Of a DNA stretch of 64,000 bases, positions 38,478-60,124 are shown piece after piece (within the stretch, counting starts at the first letter, position 1; every line of letters starts with the position of its first letter). A program made the position numbers and the translations under genes. Origin of the DNA: Aliigemmobacter aestuarii (GTDB taxonomy: Bacteria > Pseudomonadota > Alphaproteobacteria > Rhodobacterales > Rhodobacteraceae); NCBI RefSeq assembly GCF_004799285.1, contig NZ_SSND01000001.1, positions 992,001 through 1,056,000 of the forward strand, in the 5' to 3' direction. Below the pieces are notes generated by a model. The model was not told where the DNA came from. It saw only the letters and a program-made list of their open reading frames with translations, and did no database searches.

Positions 38478-38512
38478 CGCCCGGGCCGCATGGCCCGGGC
38501 GTTCTGTTTTGT
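38478..38512 (+). terminator. Strong terminator between ecm and lpd
   Basis: Perfect 10-bp arms CGCCCGGGCC (38478-38487) and GGCCCGGGCG (38492-38501) with a GCAT loop are followed by TTCTGTTTT on the plus strand. A second perfect hairpin (AGGGGGCG/CGCCCCCT, 38320-38338) sits right after the ecm stop. The stem is also immediately downstream of the lpd stop on the minus strand. Confidence 0.75.
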
Positions 38513-39900
38513 CAGGCGTGGATCGCGCCGTCGCCGCAGGCCAGTGCGGCCTCGCGCACGGCTTCTGAATAGGTCGGGTGGGCGTGACAGGTCAGGGCCA
38601 GATCCTGCGCGCTGGCGCCGAATTCCATCGCCACGCAGACCTCGTGGATCAGGTCGCCCGCCGCGGGGCCGATGATGTGGCACCCGAGGATACGGTCGGT
38701 TTCCTTGTCGGCCAGCAGCTTGACGAAGCCCTCGCCCTGGAACACGGCCTTTGCGCGACCATTGCCCATGAAGCTGAACTTGCCCACCTTGTAGGCGCGC
38801 CCCTCGGCCTTCAGTTGCTCTTCGGTCTTGCCGACAGAGGCAACCTCGGGCGTGGTGTAGATCACGCCGGGGATGACGTCATAGTTCACATGGCCATGCT
38901 TGCCCGCGATCACCTCGGCCACGGCCATGCCCTCGTCCTCGGCCTTGTGCGCCAGCATCGGACCCATGACCGCGTCGCCGATGGCATAGACGCCTTTCAC
39001 GTTGGTGGCGAAATGGCCGTCGGTCCTGATCTGGCCGCGCGGTTCCATCTCGACGCCGAGCGCCTCCAGCCCGAGGCCGTCGGTATAGGGCTTGCGGCCG
39101 GTGGCGACCAGGACGACATCGGCCTCGATCGTGTGGGTGCTGTCGTCCTTCTTCAGCTTGTAGGTGACTTTCGCGCCCTTCTTGCCCGCTTCCGCGCCCT
39201 GCACGGCGGCCCCCAGCACGAACTTCAGCCCCTGCTTGGCAAGGATGCGCTGGAAGGATTTCGCCACTTCGGCATCCATTCCGGGCGTGATCGCGTCAAG
39301 GTATTCGACCACCGTGACCTCGGCGCCGAGACGGGCATAGACCGACCCCATTTCCAGCCCGATCACGCCCGCGCCGATCACCACCATCGACTTCGGCACC
39401 GCGGAAAGCGCCAGCGCGCCGGTCGAGGTGACGATGACCTTTTCATCCACCGGCACGCCCGGCAGGCTGGCGGGTTCCGAGCCGGTCGCGATGACGATGG
39501 CGCGGGCAGCATGGACCTCGTCGCCGACCTTCACCTGACCGGCCGCGGGGATCGAGCCCCAACCCTTGAGCCAGGTCACCTTGTTCTTCTTGAACAGGAA
39601 CTCGATGCCCTTGGTGTTGCCGGAAATCACGTCATCCTTGTAGGCCTGCATCTTCGCCCAGTCGACCTTGGGCTTGGCGCCCATCAGGCCCATCTTTTCG
39701 AAGTTTTCGTGCACCTCGTGCAGGTGGTGCGTGGCGTTCAGAAGCGCCTTCGAGGGGATGCAGCCCACGTTCAGGCAGGTGCCGCCCAGGGCATCGCGGC
39801 CTTCCACGCAGGCGGTCTTCAGGCCCAGCTGGGCACAGCGGATCGCGCAGACATAGCCGCCGGGGCCGCCGCCGATCACGATCACATCGAATTCTGCCAT
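38512..39900 (-). CDS. lpdA: Dihydrolipoyl dehydrogenase (E3)
   Basis: Flavoprotein that reoxidises dihydrolipoyl groups of 2-oxoglutarate dehydrogenase. The 462-aa product has the N-terminal FAD motif [12 protein letters not shown] and the redox-active disulfide in [13 protein letters not shown] (about 41-53). It also has the NAD-binding [13 protein letters not shown] and the C-terminal catalytic His in [10 protein letters not shown]. It is the last gene of the suc operon, after MAPEG. A dispersed repeat and a strong stem lie just upstream, so lpd may also be transcribed separately. Confidence 0.96.
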
Positions 39901-40502: not shown

Positions 40503-41720
40503 TCACAGGTCCATCAGCAACCGGCGCGGGTCTTCCAGCGCTTCCTTGACGCGCACGAGGAAGGTCACGGCGCCCTTGCCGTCGACGATGCGGTGATCGT
40601 AGCTGAGCGCGAGATACATCATCGGGCGGATCACGATCTGGCCGTTCACGACCACGGGGCGATCCTGGATCTTGTGCATGCCGAGGATGCCCGACTGCGG
40701 CGGGTTCAGGATCGGCGAGGACATGAGCGAGCCATAGACGCCGCCGTTCGAGATGGTGAAGGACCCGCCCTGCATTTCGGCCATGGAAAGCTTGCCGTCG
40801 CGGGCGCGAGCGCCCAGTTCGGCGATCTTCTTCTCGATCGCGGCAAAGCCCATCTGGTCGGCATCGCGCACCACCGGAACCACAAGGCCGGACGGCGTGC
40901 CCACGGCCACGCCCATGTGGACATAGTTCTTGTAGACGATGTCGGTGCCGTCGATTTCGGCGTTGACCTCGGGCACTTCCTTCAGCGCGTGGCAGCAGGC
41001 CTTCACGAAGAAGGACATGAAGCCCATCTTGACGCCGTGCTTCTTCTCGAACTGGTCCTTGAAGGCATTGCGCAGGTCCATGATGCCGGACATGTCCACC
41101 TCGTTGTAGGTGGTCAGCATGGCGGCGGTGTTCTGGCTGTCCTTCAGACGGCGCGCGATGGTCTGGCGCAGCTTGGTCATCTTGACGCGTTCTTCGCGCG
41201 CGGCGTCATCGGCAGGAACCGGCGCGCGCGGGATGGCGGGTGCAGCCGGGGCGGCCACCGGTGCGGCGGCGGCAGCCGCCACCGCGCGGGCCACGTCTTC
41301 CTTCATCACGCGGCCGTCGCGGCCGGTGCCCTGGACCTTGTCGGGCGAAAGCCCCGCTTCGGCCATCGCCTTTTTCGCGGCGGGGGCGTCTTCGACATCC
41401 TTCGCGGCAGGGGCGGCGGCAGGCGCCGGGGCGGGCTCGGCCTTGGGCGCGGCGGCGGCGGGCGCGGGCGCGGCTGCGGCCCCGCCTTCGACCAGCGTCG
41501 CCAGAAGGCCCGCGGCGGTCACGGTATCGCCTTCCTTGGCGAGGATTTCGCCCAGGACGCCCGCGGCGGGCGAGGGAACATCCAGCGACACCTTGTCGGT
41601 TTCCAGTTCGCACAGGATCTCGTCCACGGCGACGGCATCGCCCGGTTTCTTGAACCAGGTGGCGACAGTGGCCTCGGTGACGCTTTCGCCGAGCGCGGGG
41701 ACACGGACTTCAACGGTCAT
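40503..41720 (-). CDS. sucB: Dihydrolipoyl succinyltransferase, E2 of 2-oxoglutarate dehydrogenase
   Basis: Forms the core of the 2-oxoglutarate dehydrogenase complex. The 405-aa protein has an N-terminal lipoyl domain with the modified Lys in [15 protein letters not shown]. An Ala/Pro-rich linker follows, then an E3-binding domain ([28 protein letters not shown]) and a catalytic domain ending in [16 protein letters not shown]. It starts 4 bp after the sucA stop. Two hairpins follow the stop before the MAPEG gene. Confidence 0.97.
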
Positions 41721-41724
41721 GATC

Positions 41725-44688
41725 TCATTTCCCTTCGAAAGACAGCGCTTCGTTCACGAGCGCTTCCTGTTCCATCTTGTGTTTCGAGGCGAGGCCCGTC
41801 GCGGGCGAGGCCGAGGCGCTGCGGCCGACATAGCGGGCCCGGCTTGACGCGCCGCCCACCTGTTCAAGCACCCATTCGATGTTCGGCTCGATGAAGGACC
41901 AGTAGCCCTGGTTCTTGGGCTCTTCCTGGCACCAAATGATCTCGGCCTGCGGGAAGCGACCCAGTTCCGCGCGCAGCGATTGCGCCGGGAACGGGTAAAG
42001 CTGTTCCACCCGCAGGATATAGACATCGTCGGCCCCGCGTGCGTCGCGTTCGGCCAGAAGGTCGTAATAGACCTTGCCGCTGCACATCACCACGCGGCGG
42101 ATCTTGGAATCGGGCTTCAGCGTCAGGTTCGAATTGCCCTTTTCGGCGTCGTCCCACAGGATGCGGTGGAAGGTCGAGCCGGTGGTGAAATCCTCGGCGG
42201 TGCTGATGCACATCGGATGACGCAAAAGCGACTTCGGCGTCATCAGGATCAGCGGCTTGCGGAAATCGCGGTGGATCTGGCGCCGCAGGATGTGGAAGTA
42301 GTTCGCCGGGGTCGAACAGTTGGCAACGATCCAGTTGTCATGCGCCGACATCTGCAGGAACCGCTCAGGGCGGGCCGAGGAATGTTCCGGACCCTGCCCC
42401 TCGAAGCCATGCGGCAACAGGACCACAAGCCCCGACATCCGCAGCCATTTGGATTCGCCCGAGTTGATGAACTGGTCGAACATGATCTGCGCGCCGTTAG
42501 CGAAATCGCCGAACTGGGCTTCCCACAGCGTCAGCGCGTTCGGTTCGGCCAGAGAATAGCCATATTCGAAGCCCAAGACCGCGTATTCCGACAGCATCGA
42601 ATCGATCACCTCGTACCGCGCCTGACCGGCGCGGACGTGGTTCAGCGGGTAATAGCGTTCCTCGGTCGCCTGGTCGATCAGGCCGGAATGGCGCTGGCTG
42701 AAGGTGCCGCGGGTGCAGTCCTGGCCGGCCAGACGCACCGGGAAGCCTTCGGTCAGAAGCGAACCGAAGGCCAGCGCCTCGGCCGTGGCCCAGTCAAAGC
42801 CGCGGCCGTCGTCGAACATCTTCTTCTTGGCCTCAAGCTGCCGTGCGACGGTCTTGTGGATGTCGAAACCTTCGGGGACGCGGGTCAGGGCGCCGCCCAG
42901 TTCGGCCAGGGTTTCGGGTTTGATCGAGGTGTTGCCGGCGTTGTACTGCTGGCCCTCTTTCGAAAGGTTCTTCCAGCGGCCGTCCAGCCAGTCGGCCTTG
43001 TTCGGCTTGTAATCCTTGCCGGCCTCGAATTCCTCGTTCAGGCGCGCCTGGAAGGCGGCCTTCATGTCCTCGATCTCGCCTTCCGGGATCAGGCCGTCCT
43101 TGACCAGACGTTCGGTGTAAAGCTGAAGCGTGGTCTTGTGGCGCTTGATGCGGTTGTACATCGCCGGGTTGGTGAACATCGGCTCGTCGCCTTCGTTGTG
43201 ACCGAAGCGGCGATAGCAGAAGATGTCGATGACCACGTCCTTGCCGAACTTCTGGCGGAACTCGGTCGCGACCTTGGCGGCATGGACCACGGCCTCGGGG
43301 TCATCCCCGTTCACATGGAAGATCGGGGCCTCGACCATCAGGGCGATGTCGGTCGGATAGGGCGAGCTGCGGCTGAAATGCGGTGCAGTGGTAAACCCGA
43401 TCTGGTTGTTCACCACGATATGCATCGTCCCGCCGGTGCGGTGGCCCTTGATCCCCGAAAGCTGGAAGCATTCGGCCACCACGCCCTGCCCGGCAAAGGC
43501 CGCGTCGCCATGCAGCAGGATCGGCATGACCGAACGGCGTTCGGCATCGCCCAGCTGGTCCTGCTTGGCTCGCACCTTGCCAAGGACGACGGGGTTCACC
43601 GCCTCGAGGTGGCTGGGGTTCGCCGTCAGCGACAGGTGCACGGTGTTGCCGTCGAACGTCCGGTCGGACGAGGCGCCCAGGTGATACTTCACATCGCCCG
43701 AGCCATCCACATCCTCGGGCTTGAAGCTGCCGCCCTGGAATTCGTTGAAGATCGCGCGATAGGGCTTGCCCATCACATTGGCCAGAACCGACAGGCGGCC
43801 GCGGTGCGGCATGCCGATGACGATTTCCTTCACGCCAAGCGCACCGCCGCGCTTGATGATCTGTTCCATCGCCGGGATCAGGCTTTCGCCGCCGTCCAGA
43901 CCGAAACGCTTGGTCCCCATGTACTTGACATGCAGGAACTTTTCAAAGCCCTCGGCCTCGACCAGCTTGTTTAGGATGGCCTTGCGGCCCTCGCGGGTAA
44001 AGGCAATTTCCTTGCCGTAGCCTTCGATCCGTTCCTTCAGCCAGGCGGCCTGTTCGGGATCGGAGATGTGCATGTATTGCAGCGCGAAGGTGCCGCAATA
44101 GGTGCGCTTCACGATGTCCATGATCTGCCGCATCGAGGCGGTTTCCAGACCCAGCACCTTGTCGATGAAGATGGGGCGGTCCATGTCGGCCTCGGTGAAG
44201 CCGTAGGATTTCGGCTCGAGTTCCGGATGCGGGGTCTGGTCGCGCATGTTCAGCGGGTCCAGATCGGCGATCAGATGGCCCCGGATGCGATAGGCGCGGA
44301 TGATCATCAGCGCGCGGATCGAATCCAGCACGGCGCGCCGGATCTGGTCATCCGAAAGGCTGATCCCCGCCTCGGCGGCCTTGGCGGCGATCTTCTGGCC
44401 GGCGCCCTTTGCCTCTTTCGGGGCAAGCGGCCATTCGCCGGTCAGCGCAGCGGTCAGGTCATCGGCCGGCACCGGCGGCCAGTCGGCGCGCGCCCAGGAC
44501 GGGCCCGCGGCGGCACGCTTTGCTTCCACCTCGGTTTCGCCAAGGGCACGGAAGAATTCGGCCCAACCGGCCTCGACCGAATTCGGATCATTGGCGAAAC
44601 GCGCCTGAAGCTGGTCGATGTACTCGGCATTCGCGCCATCCATGAAGGATTGCGCGTGATACGTGGCGTTGGGGGAATGGTCGTTCAT
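41725..44688 (-). CDS. sucA: 2-oxoglutarate dehydrogenase E1 component
   Basis: Thiamine-diphosphate-dependent decarboxylase of the TCA cycle, 987 aa. Family landmarks include an N-terminal [31 protein letters not shown] and [20 protein letters not shown]. The ThDP-site residues lie around [10 protein letters not shown] and [11 protein letters not shown], and [23 protein letters not shown] follows. ATG 44688 gives the usual MNDHSPN-type start; the frame is open 16 codons further upstream into the sucD-sucA gap (62 bp). sucB follows after 4 bp. Confidence 0.97.
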
Positions 44689-44750
44689 GGCTGCACCTGA
44701 CCTGTTGAAAGCCCGCGCCCCGCAGACAGGGGGCACGGGCCGGTGTCGTC

Positions 44751-45635
44751 TTATTTTCCGAGCGCCTTCATCACCGCCTCGCCCAGATGGGCGGGGCTTT
44801 CGGCGACGACGATGCCGGCGGATTTCATCGCTTCGATCTTCGATTCCGCGTCGCCCTTGCCGCCCGAGACGATGGCGCCGGCATGGCCCATGCGGCGGCC
44901 GGGGGGGGCTGTGCGGCCGGCGATGAACCCGGCGGTGGGCTTCCAGCGGCCCTTCTTGCGTTCGGACGCCAGGAATTCGGCGGCCTCTTCTTCCGCCGAA
45001 CCGCCGATTTCACCGATCATGATGATCGAGGTGGTTTCCGGGTCGGCCAGGAACATCTCAAGCACGTCGATATGTTCGGTGCCCTTGATCGGGTCGCCGC
45101 CGATGCCCACGGCCGAGGATTGGCCAAGGCCGAGGTCCGAGGTCTGCTTGACCGCCTCATAGGTCAGCGTGCCCGAACGCGACACCACGCCCACGGAACC
45201 GCGGCGGTGGATGTGGCCCGGCATGATGCCGATCTTGCAGGCGTCCGGGGTGATCACGCCGGGGCAGTTCGGCCCGATCAGCCGTGATTTCGACCCTTCC
45301 AGCGCGCGCTTGACCTTCATCATGTCCAGCACCGGAATACCTTCGGTGATGCAGACGATCAGCTCCATCTCGGCGTCGATCGCCTCGAGGATCGAGTCGG
45401 CCGCGAAGGGCGGCGGCACATAGATCGCCGTCGCATTGGCGCCGGTCACATGGCGCGCCTCGTGTACCGAGTTGAACACGGGCAGGTTCAGGTGGGTCGT
45501 GCCACCCTTGCCCGGCGTCACGCCGCCGACCATCCTGGTGCCATAGGCGATGGCCTGTTCCGAGTGGAATGTGCCCTGCGAGCCGGTGAAGCCCTGACAG
45601 ATCACCTTGGTGTTTTCGTTGACGAGAACGGCCAT
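44751..45635 (-). CDS. sucD: Succinyl-CoA synthetase alpha subunit
   Basis: Substrate-level phosphorylation step of the TCA cycle. The 294-aa protein has the CoA-binding N-terminal domain ([32 protein letters not shown]) and the phosphohistidine loop [14 protein letters not shown] near residue 246. It lies 4 bp after sucC and 62 bp before sucA in one operon. Confidence 0.97.
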
Positions 45636-45639
45636 TGGA

Positions 45640-46833
<1,194 letters not shown>

Positions 46834-46939
46834 GGAACTGTCCCGTCTGGTGGTGATTTGGGGGCGTCATGCCACAGAAAAAGGCAGCCACAAAACGCGA
46901 TTTCCGGAAAATGCGGGTTTTGGGACAGAAAAGCGACAA

Positions 46940-46972
46940 TTGTGATCACAGCAAGAAAAAGTGTGATCACAA
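46940..46972. promoter_or_regulatory. Paired palindromic operator upstream of sucC
   Basis: TTGTGATCACA (46940-46950) and TGTGATCACAA (46962-46972) are perfect reverse complements separated by 11 bp (GCAAGAAAAAG). Each box is itself the palindrome TGTGATCACA, and the two centres are 21 bp apart, two helical turns. The element sits about 108 bp before sucC. The same element, same spacing, stands before sdhC. No T or G bias suggests a terminator. Confidence 0.85.
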
Positions 46973-55937: not shown

Positions 55938-55974
55938 ATTTGTGATCACGCGCAGAAAATTCGTGATCACAAAT
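55938..55974. promoter_or_regulatory. Paired palindromic operator upstream of sdhC
   Basis: Perfect 13-bp arms ATTTGTGATCACG (55938-55950) and CGTGATCACAAAT (55962-55974) flank an 11-bp spacer (CGCAGAAAATT). Each arm contains GTGATCAC, itself palindromic, with centres 21 bp apart. The element lies about 143 bp before sdhC. It is the same design and spacing as the element before sucC. Confidence 0.85.
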
Positions 55975-56003: not shown

Positions 56004-56116
56004 TGCCGCGATTGTCGCCTTTGAAAGCGTGACTTGGCCGAAAAATCCGCTATTCAGAAACCCAAAACCAGCTGGCCCGGCACGCACCCGGACCCTGCGA
56101 GACGAAGGGAAAGCCC

Positions 56117-56500
56117 ATGGCAAACGTGAAGCGGGTCGAACGGCCCCTGTCCCCCCACCTTCAGATCTACCGCTGGCAACTGCCAATGCTGACCTCCATC
56201 CTGACCCGGATCACCGGCAACGCGCTGATCGTCGGTGTGCTTCTGGCGGTCTGGTGGCTGTTTGCCGCGGCGGTCGGACCGGAATACTTCGCGATTGCCG
56301 ATGCGGTGGCGACCTCGTGGTTCGGGGATCTGGTGTTCACCGGGTCGCTTTGGGCGGTCTGGTATCACTACCTCGCGGGGCTGCGGCACCTTTACTACGA
56401 CGCGGGCAAGGGGCTCGACATTCCCACGGCCGAAAAGCTGGGCTGGGGCGTTATCATCGGCTCGGTCGTCCTGACCGTCATCACCATCATTCTGGTCTGA
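56117..56500 (+). CDS. sdhC: Succinate dehydrogenase cytochrome b556 subunit
   Basis: Membrane anchor of complex II that binds haem b and quinone. The 127-aa product has three helices and the SdhC signature RPLSPHLQIYRWQLPMLTSILTRITG (read in parts) plus HYLAGLRHLYYD with the likely haem His. ATG 56117 follows GAAGGGAAA. It is the first gene of the sdh operon, behind the paired palindrome. Confidence 0.95.
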   Translation: MANVKRVERPLSPHLQIYRWQLPMLTSILTRITGNALIVGVLLAVWWLFAAAVGPEYFAIADAVATSWFGDLVFTGSLWAVWYHYLAGLRHLYYDAGKGLDIPTAEKLGWGVIIGSVVLTVITIILV

Positions 56501-56510
56501 GGAGGCACCC

Positions 56511-56882
56511 ATGCGTTACCTGACCGACCGCAAGCGCGCCGAAGGCAAGGGTGCCTCGCACACCGGGACCGAACATCACTGGTACATGCAGATTTCGGCC
56601 GTGGGCCTGGCCTTCCTCGTGCCCACCTTCCTGTTCATCTTCGGCCGTGCCCTGGGCCAAGGCCACGATGCCGTTCTGGCCGTGTTCGCGCGGCCCTTCC
56701 CCGGCATCCTGACGGCGCTGGTGCTGTTCATCGGCATGCGCCACTTCAACAAGGGCGCCATCATGATGATCGAGGACTATGCGCGCGGCACTTCGCGCAA
56801 GCTGGCCGTGATCTTCGTGACCGCGCTTTCCTACCTTGTGATCGCCGTGGGCTTCTACGCCCTGGCCAAGATCGCGCTTTGA
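56511..56882 (+). CDS. sdhD: Succinate dehydrogenase hydrophobic anchor subunit
   Basis: Second membrane anchor of complex II, 123 aa with three helices. A polar start ([21 protein letters not shown]) is followed by helices about 25-47, 55-76 and 95-118. [16 protein letters not shown] lies between the second and third helices. It sits 10 bp after sdhC and 10 bp before sdhA. Confidence 0.93.
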
Positions 56883-56892
56883 GAGGACCGAA

Positions 56893-58695
56893 ATGACTGC
56901 TTACCCTTACGAGACGCATGATTATGACGTCGTGGTCGTCGGCGCGGGCGGTGCGGGTCTGCGCGCGACGCTTGGCATGGCCGAACAGGGCCTGCGCACG
57001 GCCTGCGTGACCAAGGTCTTCCCGACCCGGTCGCACACCGTGGCGGCGCAGGGCGGCATCGCCGCCAGCCTTGGCAACATGGGGCCGGACAGCTGGCAGT
57101 GGCACATGTACGACACCGTGAAGGGGTCGGACTGGCTGGGCGACACGGACGCGATGGAATACCTCGCCCGTGAGGCGCCAAAGGCGGTGTACGAACTGGA
57201 ACATTACGGCGTGCCCTTCAGCCGCACCGAGGAAGGCAAGATCTATCAGCGCCCCTTCGGCGGCCATACCACCGAATACGGCGAAGGCCCGCCCGTGCAG
57301 CGCACCTGCGCCGCAGCCGACCGCACCGGCCACGCGATCCTTCACACGCTTTACGGCCAGTCGCTGAAGCAGAAGGCGGAGTTCTTCATCGAATATTTCG
57401 CGCTGGACCTGATCATCACCGACGGCGCCTGCACCGGCGTCGTGGCATGGAAGCTGGATGACGGCACGATCCACGTCTTCAACGCCAAGATGGTGGTCCT
57501 CGCCACCGGCGGCTATGGTCGCGCCTATTTCAGCGCAACCTCGGCCCACACCTGCACCGGCGACGGCGGCGGGATGGCGGCGCGTGCGGGCCTGCCCTTG
57601 CAGGACATGGAATTCGTGCAGTTCCACCCCACCGGCATCTACGGTTCGGGCTGCCTGATCACCGAAGGCGCCCGCGGCGAGGGCGGCTATCTGACCAACT
57701 CGAACGGCGAACGGTTCATGGAGCGCTATGCGCCCACCTACAAGGACCTTGCCAGCCGCGATGTCGTCAGCCGCTGCATGACGATCGAGATCCGCGAAGG
57801 CCGCGGCGTGGGCGCGGATGGCGACCACATCCACCTGCACCTCAACCACCTTCCGCCGGAAACCCTGCACGAACGCCTGCCGGGGATTTCGGAAAGCGCC
57901 AAGATATTTGCCGGCGTCGACGTGACCAAGGAACCGATCCCGGTCCTGCCTACCGTGCATTACAACATGGGCGGCATTCCCACGAACTATTGGGGCGAGG
58001 TTCTGGCGCCGACGAAGGACAATCCCGACGCCGTCTTCCCCGGCCTGATGGCCGTGGGCGAGGCGGGCTGCGCCTCGGTGCACGGGGCGAACCGTCTTGG
58101 TTCCAACTCGCTGATCGACCTTGTGGTGTTCGGCCGCGCCGCCGCGATCCGCGCGGGCGAAATCGTGAACCCGAAGGACCGCAACCAGCCCGTGAACATC
58201 GCCGAGGTCGACCGCTGCCTGTCGCGCTTCGACGCGCTGCGCCACGCCAAGGGCACCGTGCCCACCGCCGACCTGCGTCTGGAAATGCAGAAGACGATGC
58301 AATCTGATGCCGCCGTCTTCCGCACCGACAAGACGCTGGCCGAAGGGGTCGAGAAGATGGCCGGGGTGGCCGCGAAGATGGATGACCTCAAGGTCACCGA
58401 CCGCAGCCTGATCTGGAACAGCGACCTGATGGAAACGCTGGAACTGACCAACCTGATGCCGAACGCGCTGGCCACGATCGTGGCGGCCGAGGCGCGCAAG
58501 GAAAGCCGTGGCGCCCATGCGCACGAGGATTATCCGAACCGCGACGACGCGAACTGGCGCAAACACTCGCTGGCCTATGTCGATGGGGCGAAGGTGTCGC
58601 TGGCCTACCGGCCGGTGCATCTTGAACCGCTGACCAAGCCGGAAGAAGGCGGGATCGACCTGAAGAAGATCGCGCCCAAGGCGCGGGTCTACTGA
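56893..58695 (+). CDS. sdhA: Succinate dehydrogenase flavoprotein subunit
   Basis: Catalytic subunit of complex II, oxidising succinate to fumarate. The 600-aa product has the FAD motif [18 protein letters not shown] and [19 protein letters not shown] (FAD-linked His). The [21 protein letters not shown] substrate loop, read in parts, is also present. The TGA stop overlaps the next gene's ATG (TGATG). Two small lipoprotein genes separate it from sdhB. Confidence 0.97.
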
Positions 58696-59344: not shown

Positions 59345-60124
59345 ATGGTCCAACTCACCCTGCCCAAGAATTCCACCGTCCGCACCGGCAAGACCTGGCC
59401 AAAGCCGGAAGGCGCGAAGAACCTGCGCAAGTTCCAGATTTACCGCTGGGACCCGGACACCGGGGAAAACCCGCGCGTCGACACCTATTTCATCGACATG
59501 GACAAGTGCGGCCCGATGGTTCTGGACGCGCTGATCAAGATCAAGAACGAGATCGACCCCACGCTGACCTTCCGTCGGTCCTGCCGCGAGGGGATCTGCG
59601 GTTCCTGCGCGATGAACATCGACGGGATCAACACGCTGGCCTGCATCTACGGGCTGGACGAGGTGAAGGGCGACGTGAAGATCTATCCGCTGCCCCACAT
59701 GCCGGTGATCAAGGACCTGATCCCCGACCTGACGCATTTCTATGCCCAGCATGCCTCGATCATGCCGTGGCTGGAAACCAAAACCAACCGCCCGGCCAAG
59801 GAATGGCGCCAGTCGATCGAGGATCGGAAAAAGCTGGACGGCCTTTATGAATGCGTGATGTGCGCGTCCTGCAGCACCTCTTGCCCGTCCTACTGGTGGA
59901 ACGGCGACAAGTACCTTGGCCCGGCCGCGCTGCTGCATGCCTATCGCTGGATCATCGACAGCCGCGACGAGGCCACGGGCGAACGTCTGGACAACCTGGA
60001 AGACCCGTTCAAGCTGTATCGCTGCCATACGATCATGAACTGCGCCAAAACCTGCCCGAAGGGGCTGAATCCTGCCAAGGCGATCGCCGAGATCAAGAAG
60101 ATGATGGTCAGCCGCGTCGTCTGA
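59345..60124 (+). CDS. sdhB: Succinate dehydrogenase iron-sulfur subunit
   Basis: Electron-transfer subunit of complex II, 259 aa. The [2Fe-2S] ligands are in [16 protein letters not shown], and the [4Fe-4S]/[3Fe-4S] ligands are in [16 protein letters not shown] and [17 protein letters not shown]. It ends the sdh operon and is followed by a bidirectional terminator. Only the two lipoprotein genes separate it from sdhA. Confidence 0.97.

Follow-up and report, generated by a model that had tools for sequence, protein, structure and literature searches.

The window, 64 kb of A. aestuarii DNA, contains two operons of the TCA cycle, and their composition (sucC-sucD-sucA-sucB-lpd, in that order, and sdhCDAB) was confirmed by family profile matches. 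Both operons are preceded by an intergenic pair of short palindromes with the core GTGATCAC (Table 1). Upstream of sucC, two exact copies of TGTGATCACA stand 21 bp apart, centre to centre, or two helical turns, as the preliminary description had reported. The pair lies 108 bp upstream of the sucC start codon at 46833, and a search of the whole genome (3.76 Mb) located TGTGATCACA only at these two sites. The design had also been described as recurring before sdhC. This is true of the core pair, GTGATCAC-N13-GTGATCAC at 55942-55970, which is exact, but not of the outer 10-mers TGTGATCACG and CGTGATCACA, which are imperfect as 10-bp palindromes.

Table 1. Genes, operators and proposed promoter elements of the two operons, with the candidate regulator gene (positions in the window, except for akgR)
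Feature	Position	Strand	Basis or remark
lpd	38512..39900	-	TIGR01350
sucB	40503..41720	-	NF004309
sucA, 2-oxoglutarate dehydrogenase E1	41725..44736	-	NF006914
sucD	44751..45635	-	NF004230
sucC, first gene of sucCDAB-lpd	45640..46833	-	NCBIfam NF001913
Proposed sucC -10 element GCATGA, 17-bp spacer	46867..46872	-	Same motif search as the -35 element, read by eye
Proposed sucC -35 element TTTTGT	46890..46895	-	Two-block motif search, 35 sucC upstream regions
sucC operator 1, proximal to sucC, TGTGATCACA	46941..46950	.	Exact match; this 10-mer occurs twice in the genome
sucC operator 2, distal, TGTGATCACA	46962..46971	.	Exact match, 21 bp from operator 1
sdhC operator 2, distal, TGTGATCACG	55941..55950	.	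Core match
sdhC operator 1, proximal to sdhC, CGTGATCACA	55962..55971	.	Core match
Proposed sdhC -35 element GTGACT	56029..56034	+	58 bp past proximal operator; position conserved in 134 family genomes
Proposed sdhC -10 element TATTCA, 16-bp spacer	56051..56056	+	Motif search; TA at fixed N16 required in pattern search
sdhC, first gene of sdhCDAB	56117..56500	+	TIGR02970
sdhD	56511..56882	+	TIGR02968
sdhA	56893..58695	+	TIGR01816
sdhB	59345..60124	+	NF004616
Candidate akgR, 220 aa, GntR and FCD domains	G000:C1:1062737-1063396	-	Best candidate in the genome

The exact pair GTGATCAC-N13-GTGATCAC occurs twice in the whole genome, once before each operon, and the reversed control gave no match. 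At up to three mismatches the window holds 3 matches against 0.19 expected, a number equalled in none of 100 shuffles. Genome matches with one or two mismatches, whose spacers are GC-rich, were discounted as probably due to chance. The expected clustering of pairs at TCA cycle operons was found for suc and sdh; no exact pair stands before icd, gltA or acn in this genome, because only two exact pairs exist, both in the window.

For the family survey, 248 Rhodobacteraceae genomes, one per genus, were searched for two GTGATCAC sites with 3-33 bp between them. At least one pair is present in 223 of the 248 genera, and the reversed control was found in one. Together with the two exact pairs of the genome and the empty control there, these counts bear out the earlier judgement that chance is unlikely. 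Pairs were assigned in 45 fetched pair-bearing stretches and the window by matching to the SucC and SdhC of the window. This yielded 67 pairs, 35 before sucC and 32 before sdhC, so spaced that the phasing of 21 bp, described as fixed, is kept in 62 and is 20 bp in the remaining 5. No conserved sequence was found between the paired sites when the 67 were compared. The sites of the window lie between genes, and pairs are kept before sucC and sdhC in relatives. When sucA leads the operon, as in G177, the pair is found upstream of sucA. Ladders of three to four GTGATCAC sites precede sucC in four stretches (L060:19903-19952, L069:20188-20263, L081:20165-20219 and L222:1819-1868), mostly at 21-bp spacing, with 26 bp also present in two of the four. 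One genus (G042) has an additional 21-bp pair before fumC, encoding fumarase C (L159:1494-1522). Another genome (G230) has an additional 20-bp pair 147 bp before a gene of the Vut_1 family, a putative vitamin uptake transporter (L208:1501-1528). Odd-spaced pairs, such as those of G044 (18 bp) and G092 (27 bp), fall mostly within long reading frames and were disregarded.

The pair is nearly restricted to the Rhodobacteraceae. A class-wide draw of 289 genomes contained few pairs outside the family, and none of those examined stands before suc or sdh. Two genomes of another family (f15) carry GTGATCAC pairs of 22 and 21 bp (L179:1501-1530 and L180:992-1020), each followed after 83-110 bp by a gene for a protein with a TonB-dependent receptor plug domain; a search of genome G261 gave no AkgR relative at E below 1e-30.

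AkgR, which Imam is said to have equated with RSP_0981 in 2015, had been named as one candidate for the binding protein, and the proposal holds up. In one report, GTGATCAC is given among the sites of AkgR, a GntR-family protein of R. sphaeroides that is termed a transcriptional activator (PMC6365646). In another, the GntR regulator RSP_0981 is predicted to control sucCD, sdh and the 2-oxoglutarate dehydrogenase genes (PMC4344238). Both pairs of the window contain the core palindrome exactly and are located before the suc and sdh operons, and they are most likely landing sites of AkgR.

The position of the operators relative to the promoter was best defined at sdhC, where a two-block motif search revealed a conserved GTGACW-N16-TA promoter downstream of the pair. 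In the 248 genomes a pattern search recovered this promoter 128 times; the proximal operator stood 48, 57-61 or 68-71 bp from the -35 element and in no case at 49-56, 62-67 or 72-74 bp. A second distance range, with distances taken by hand, added six sdhC promoters, all at 77-81 bp, and none at 75-76 or 82-105 bp in the 248 genomes. The total of 134 sdhC promoters falls into four distance groups, and the gaps between the groups are empty. Random placement of the off-peak cases reached the observed phase agreement in 0 of 200,000 draws, a test that takes no account of ancestry. A tree built from 68 SdhCDA sequences (a quick tree of short proteins, with all off-peak cases deliberately included) shows at least 17 changes of distance class, with at least 16 departures from the main class. 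The 20-bp pairs stand 0.8 bp further from the promoter than the 21-bp pairs (p 0.0014, ancestry being ignored); a compensation between operator spacing and promoter distance is suggestive only. A promoter of the form TTTnnn-N17 was recovered at sucC by motif search, at a distance conserved in most genomes; in 23 of 35 upstream regions the -35 block follows the operator at 42-46 bp. It is conserved but weaker than that of sdhC, too weak for the phasing test, which was possible for sdhC only.

Activators that touch RNA polymerase are characterized by a fixed helical face towards the promoter. In all 134 sdhC promoters the distance between operator and promoter shifts by whole helical turns only, as for class I (face-of-helix) sites, a pattern that fits an activator in contact with RNA polymerase from one constant side of the helix. 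The operators, 48-81 bp upstream of the -35 box, leave the promoter itself uncovered. This position, the fixed helical face required for contact with RNA polymerase, and the term transcriptional activator in PMC6365646 all argue against a repressor role of AkgR at the pair, whether alone or by looping. Such a role is improbable, even though many GntR proteins repress and the FCD regulator Atu1419 does so as a tetramer, with a DNA loop joining two palindromes (PMC7797058). The reading of each pair as a double operator for AkgR, which probably activates sucCDAB-lpd and sdhCDAB in class I fashion, is held here with high confidence.

The candidate akgR gene is located about 15 kb from the sdhC pair and about 7 kb beyond the end of the window. 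Between sdhB and akgR lie genes with CobW/HypB/UreG, UreE and urease alpha-subunit domains (window:60184-63914). In relatives such as L068, about 2 kb separate akgR from sdhB; the two are less than 10 kb apart in 5 of 80 relatives, the flanks of many of the 80 being cut. Orthologs of AkgR with at least 75% identity were found only in Rhodobacteraceae in the class-wide search. Pair and AkgR ortholog occur together in 220 of the 248 genomes, the pair only in 3, the protein only in 4 and neither in 21, as counted by hand from tables with presence called at E below 1e-50, a cut-off set after the values were seen. The corresponding numbers for a control, another GntR protein of the genome, are 185, 38, 6 and 19. 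The control also tracks the pair, more weakly, so that shared ancestry explains part, not all, of the co-occurrence with AkgR. Of the protein-only genomes, one (G040) carries a pair with a single mismatch before each of sucC and sdhC, and genome completeness is lower in the other three (73-92%). For 18 of 80 named relatives, an exact GTGATCAC lies at most 9 bp from where akgR starts, in varying frame, as expected for self-control; the akgR start of A. aestuarii has only the degenerate site ATGATCAG. In G187, two GTGATCAC sites 13 bp apart directly precede akgR (L162:950-970). By neighbourhood, motif and co-occurrence, the candidate is likely the AkgR ortholog.

The genome encodes 13 FCD regulators, including an AkgR paralog at 39% identity, and the pair might instead be bound by one of the other regulators, such as a second GntR/FCD protein with a similar motif. 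PS417_07240 of Pseudomonas simiae is also proposed to use GTGATCAC (PMC6365646). The reading of a different regulator is likewise improbable, as the paralog gene is preceded by TTGATCAA and not by GTGATCAC, GTGATCAC is absent from all other FCD loci of the genome, AkgR co-occurs with the pair far more strongly than does the single control tested, and exact sites stand at the akgR start in the 18 relatives. The TTGATCAA of this closest paralog lies shortly before its start (L016:1196-1203) and is perhaps its own operator, with changed specificity. An AkgR relative of G358, 38% identical, lies about 150 bp from a 24-bp-spaced GTGATCAC pair (L224:795-1403 and 1559-1590), which suggests that the motif is shared by a wider AkgR subfamily. 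A CRP/FNR-type site or a chance repeat is scarcely credible, since the TGTGA and TCACA half-sites resemble those of CRP but, as already described for sucC, abut directly without the spacer of TGTGA-N6-TCACA and are therefore not CRP-like, and chance is already excluded by control counts of 0 in the genome and 1 in the family.

Each spacerless palindrome would be occupied by one AkgR dimer. Sites 21 bp apart lie on the same side of the helix, and the spacing of 21 bp, rarely 20 bp, would put the two bound dimers on a single DNA face. Binding there is probably cooperative or takes the form of a dimer of dimers. AkgR would then probably activate sucCDAB-lpd and sdhCDAB in class I fashion through contact with RNA polymerase a fixed number of helical turns downstream, and in some relatives it probably controls its own gene as well, via the single site at the akgR start. 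We infer binding in A. aestuarii, cooperativity, RNA polymerase contact and the direction of control. The complete picture, in which AkgR is a cooperative dimer of dimers on tandem two-turn operators (three to four sites in some genera), activating both TCA cycle operons from a strictly fixed face in a family-wide design re-phased by whole turns many times, is favoured with moderate confidence. A conserved DNA design is tied here to a named TCA cycle regulator across a large bacterial family. If the picture is true, the whole family would share a phase-locked double-operator control of the TCA cycle, its right face never lost through whole-turn re-phasing. The 134 promoters record helical phasing in nature with unusual clarity, with moves of one or two whole turns and never of a half-turn, and the activation geometry of a GntR-family regulator is therefore directly testable.

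Class I CRP sites of E. coli activate from upstream only at whole-turn distances from the promoter. The AkgR pairs are similar with regard to the whole-turn rule and differ in the protein, which is unrelated, and in the 6-bp half-site spacer of CRP. Spacerless 10-bp palindromes fit FCD regulators, as in Atu1419, a GntR/FCD protein of Agrobacterium fabrum that binds the contiguous palindrome ATGTATACAT (compare TGTGATCACA here). Each palindrome takes one Atu1419 dimer, and the protein forms a tetramer able to hold two sites (PMC7797058). Atu1419 differs in its core sequence, in its sites 109-190 bp apart and in acting as a looping repressor, whereas AkgR would be a phased upstream activator (PMC7797058). 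PS417_07240, the GntR-type deoxyribonate regulator of P. simiae, is 32% identical to AkgR and has GTGATCAC upstream of its cluster, but as a single site 40-47 bp before the start codon of a catabolic cluster and not of TCA cycle genes (PMC6365646). A literature search for GTGATCAC returned nearly exclusively primers or unrelated text. The closest system is the AkgR regulon of R. sphaeroides, with the same core palindrome GTGATCAC and the same targets, sucCD, 2-oxoglutarate dehydrogenase and sdh (Imam, Noguera and Donohue 2015, as represented in the accessible sources). Neither the tandem 21-bp pair nor the whole-turn rule appears in the accessible parts of PMC6365646 and PMC4344238, and the original AkgR study may show the pair. 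Relative to these portions of the literature, the link of AkgR to suc and sdh and the core motif were already known, and the tandem, phase-locked architecture is the addition made here.
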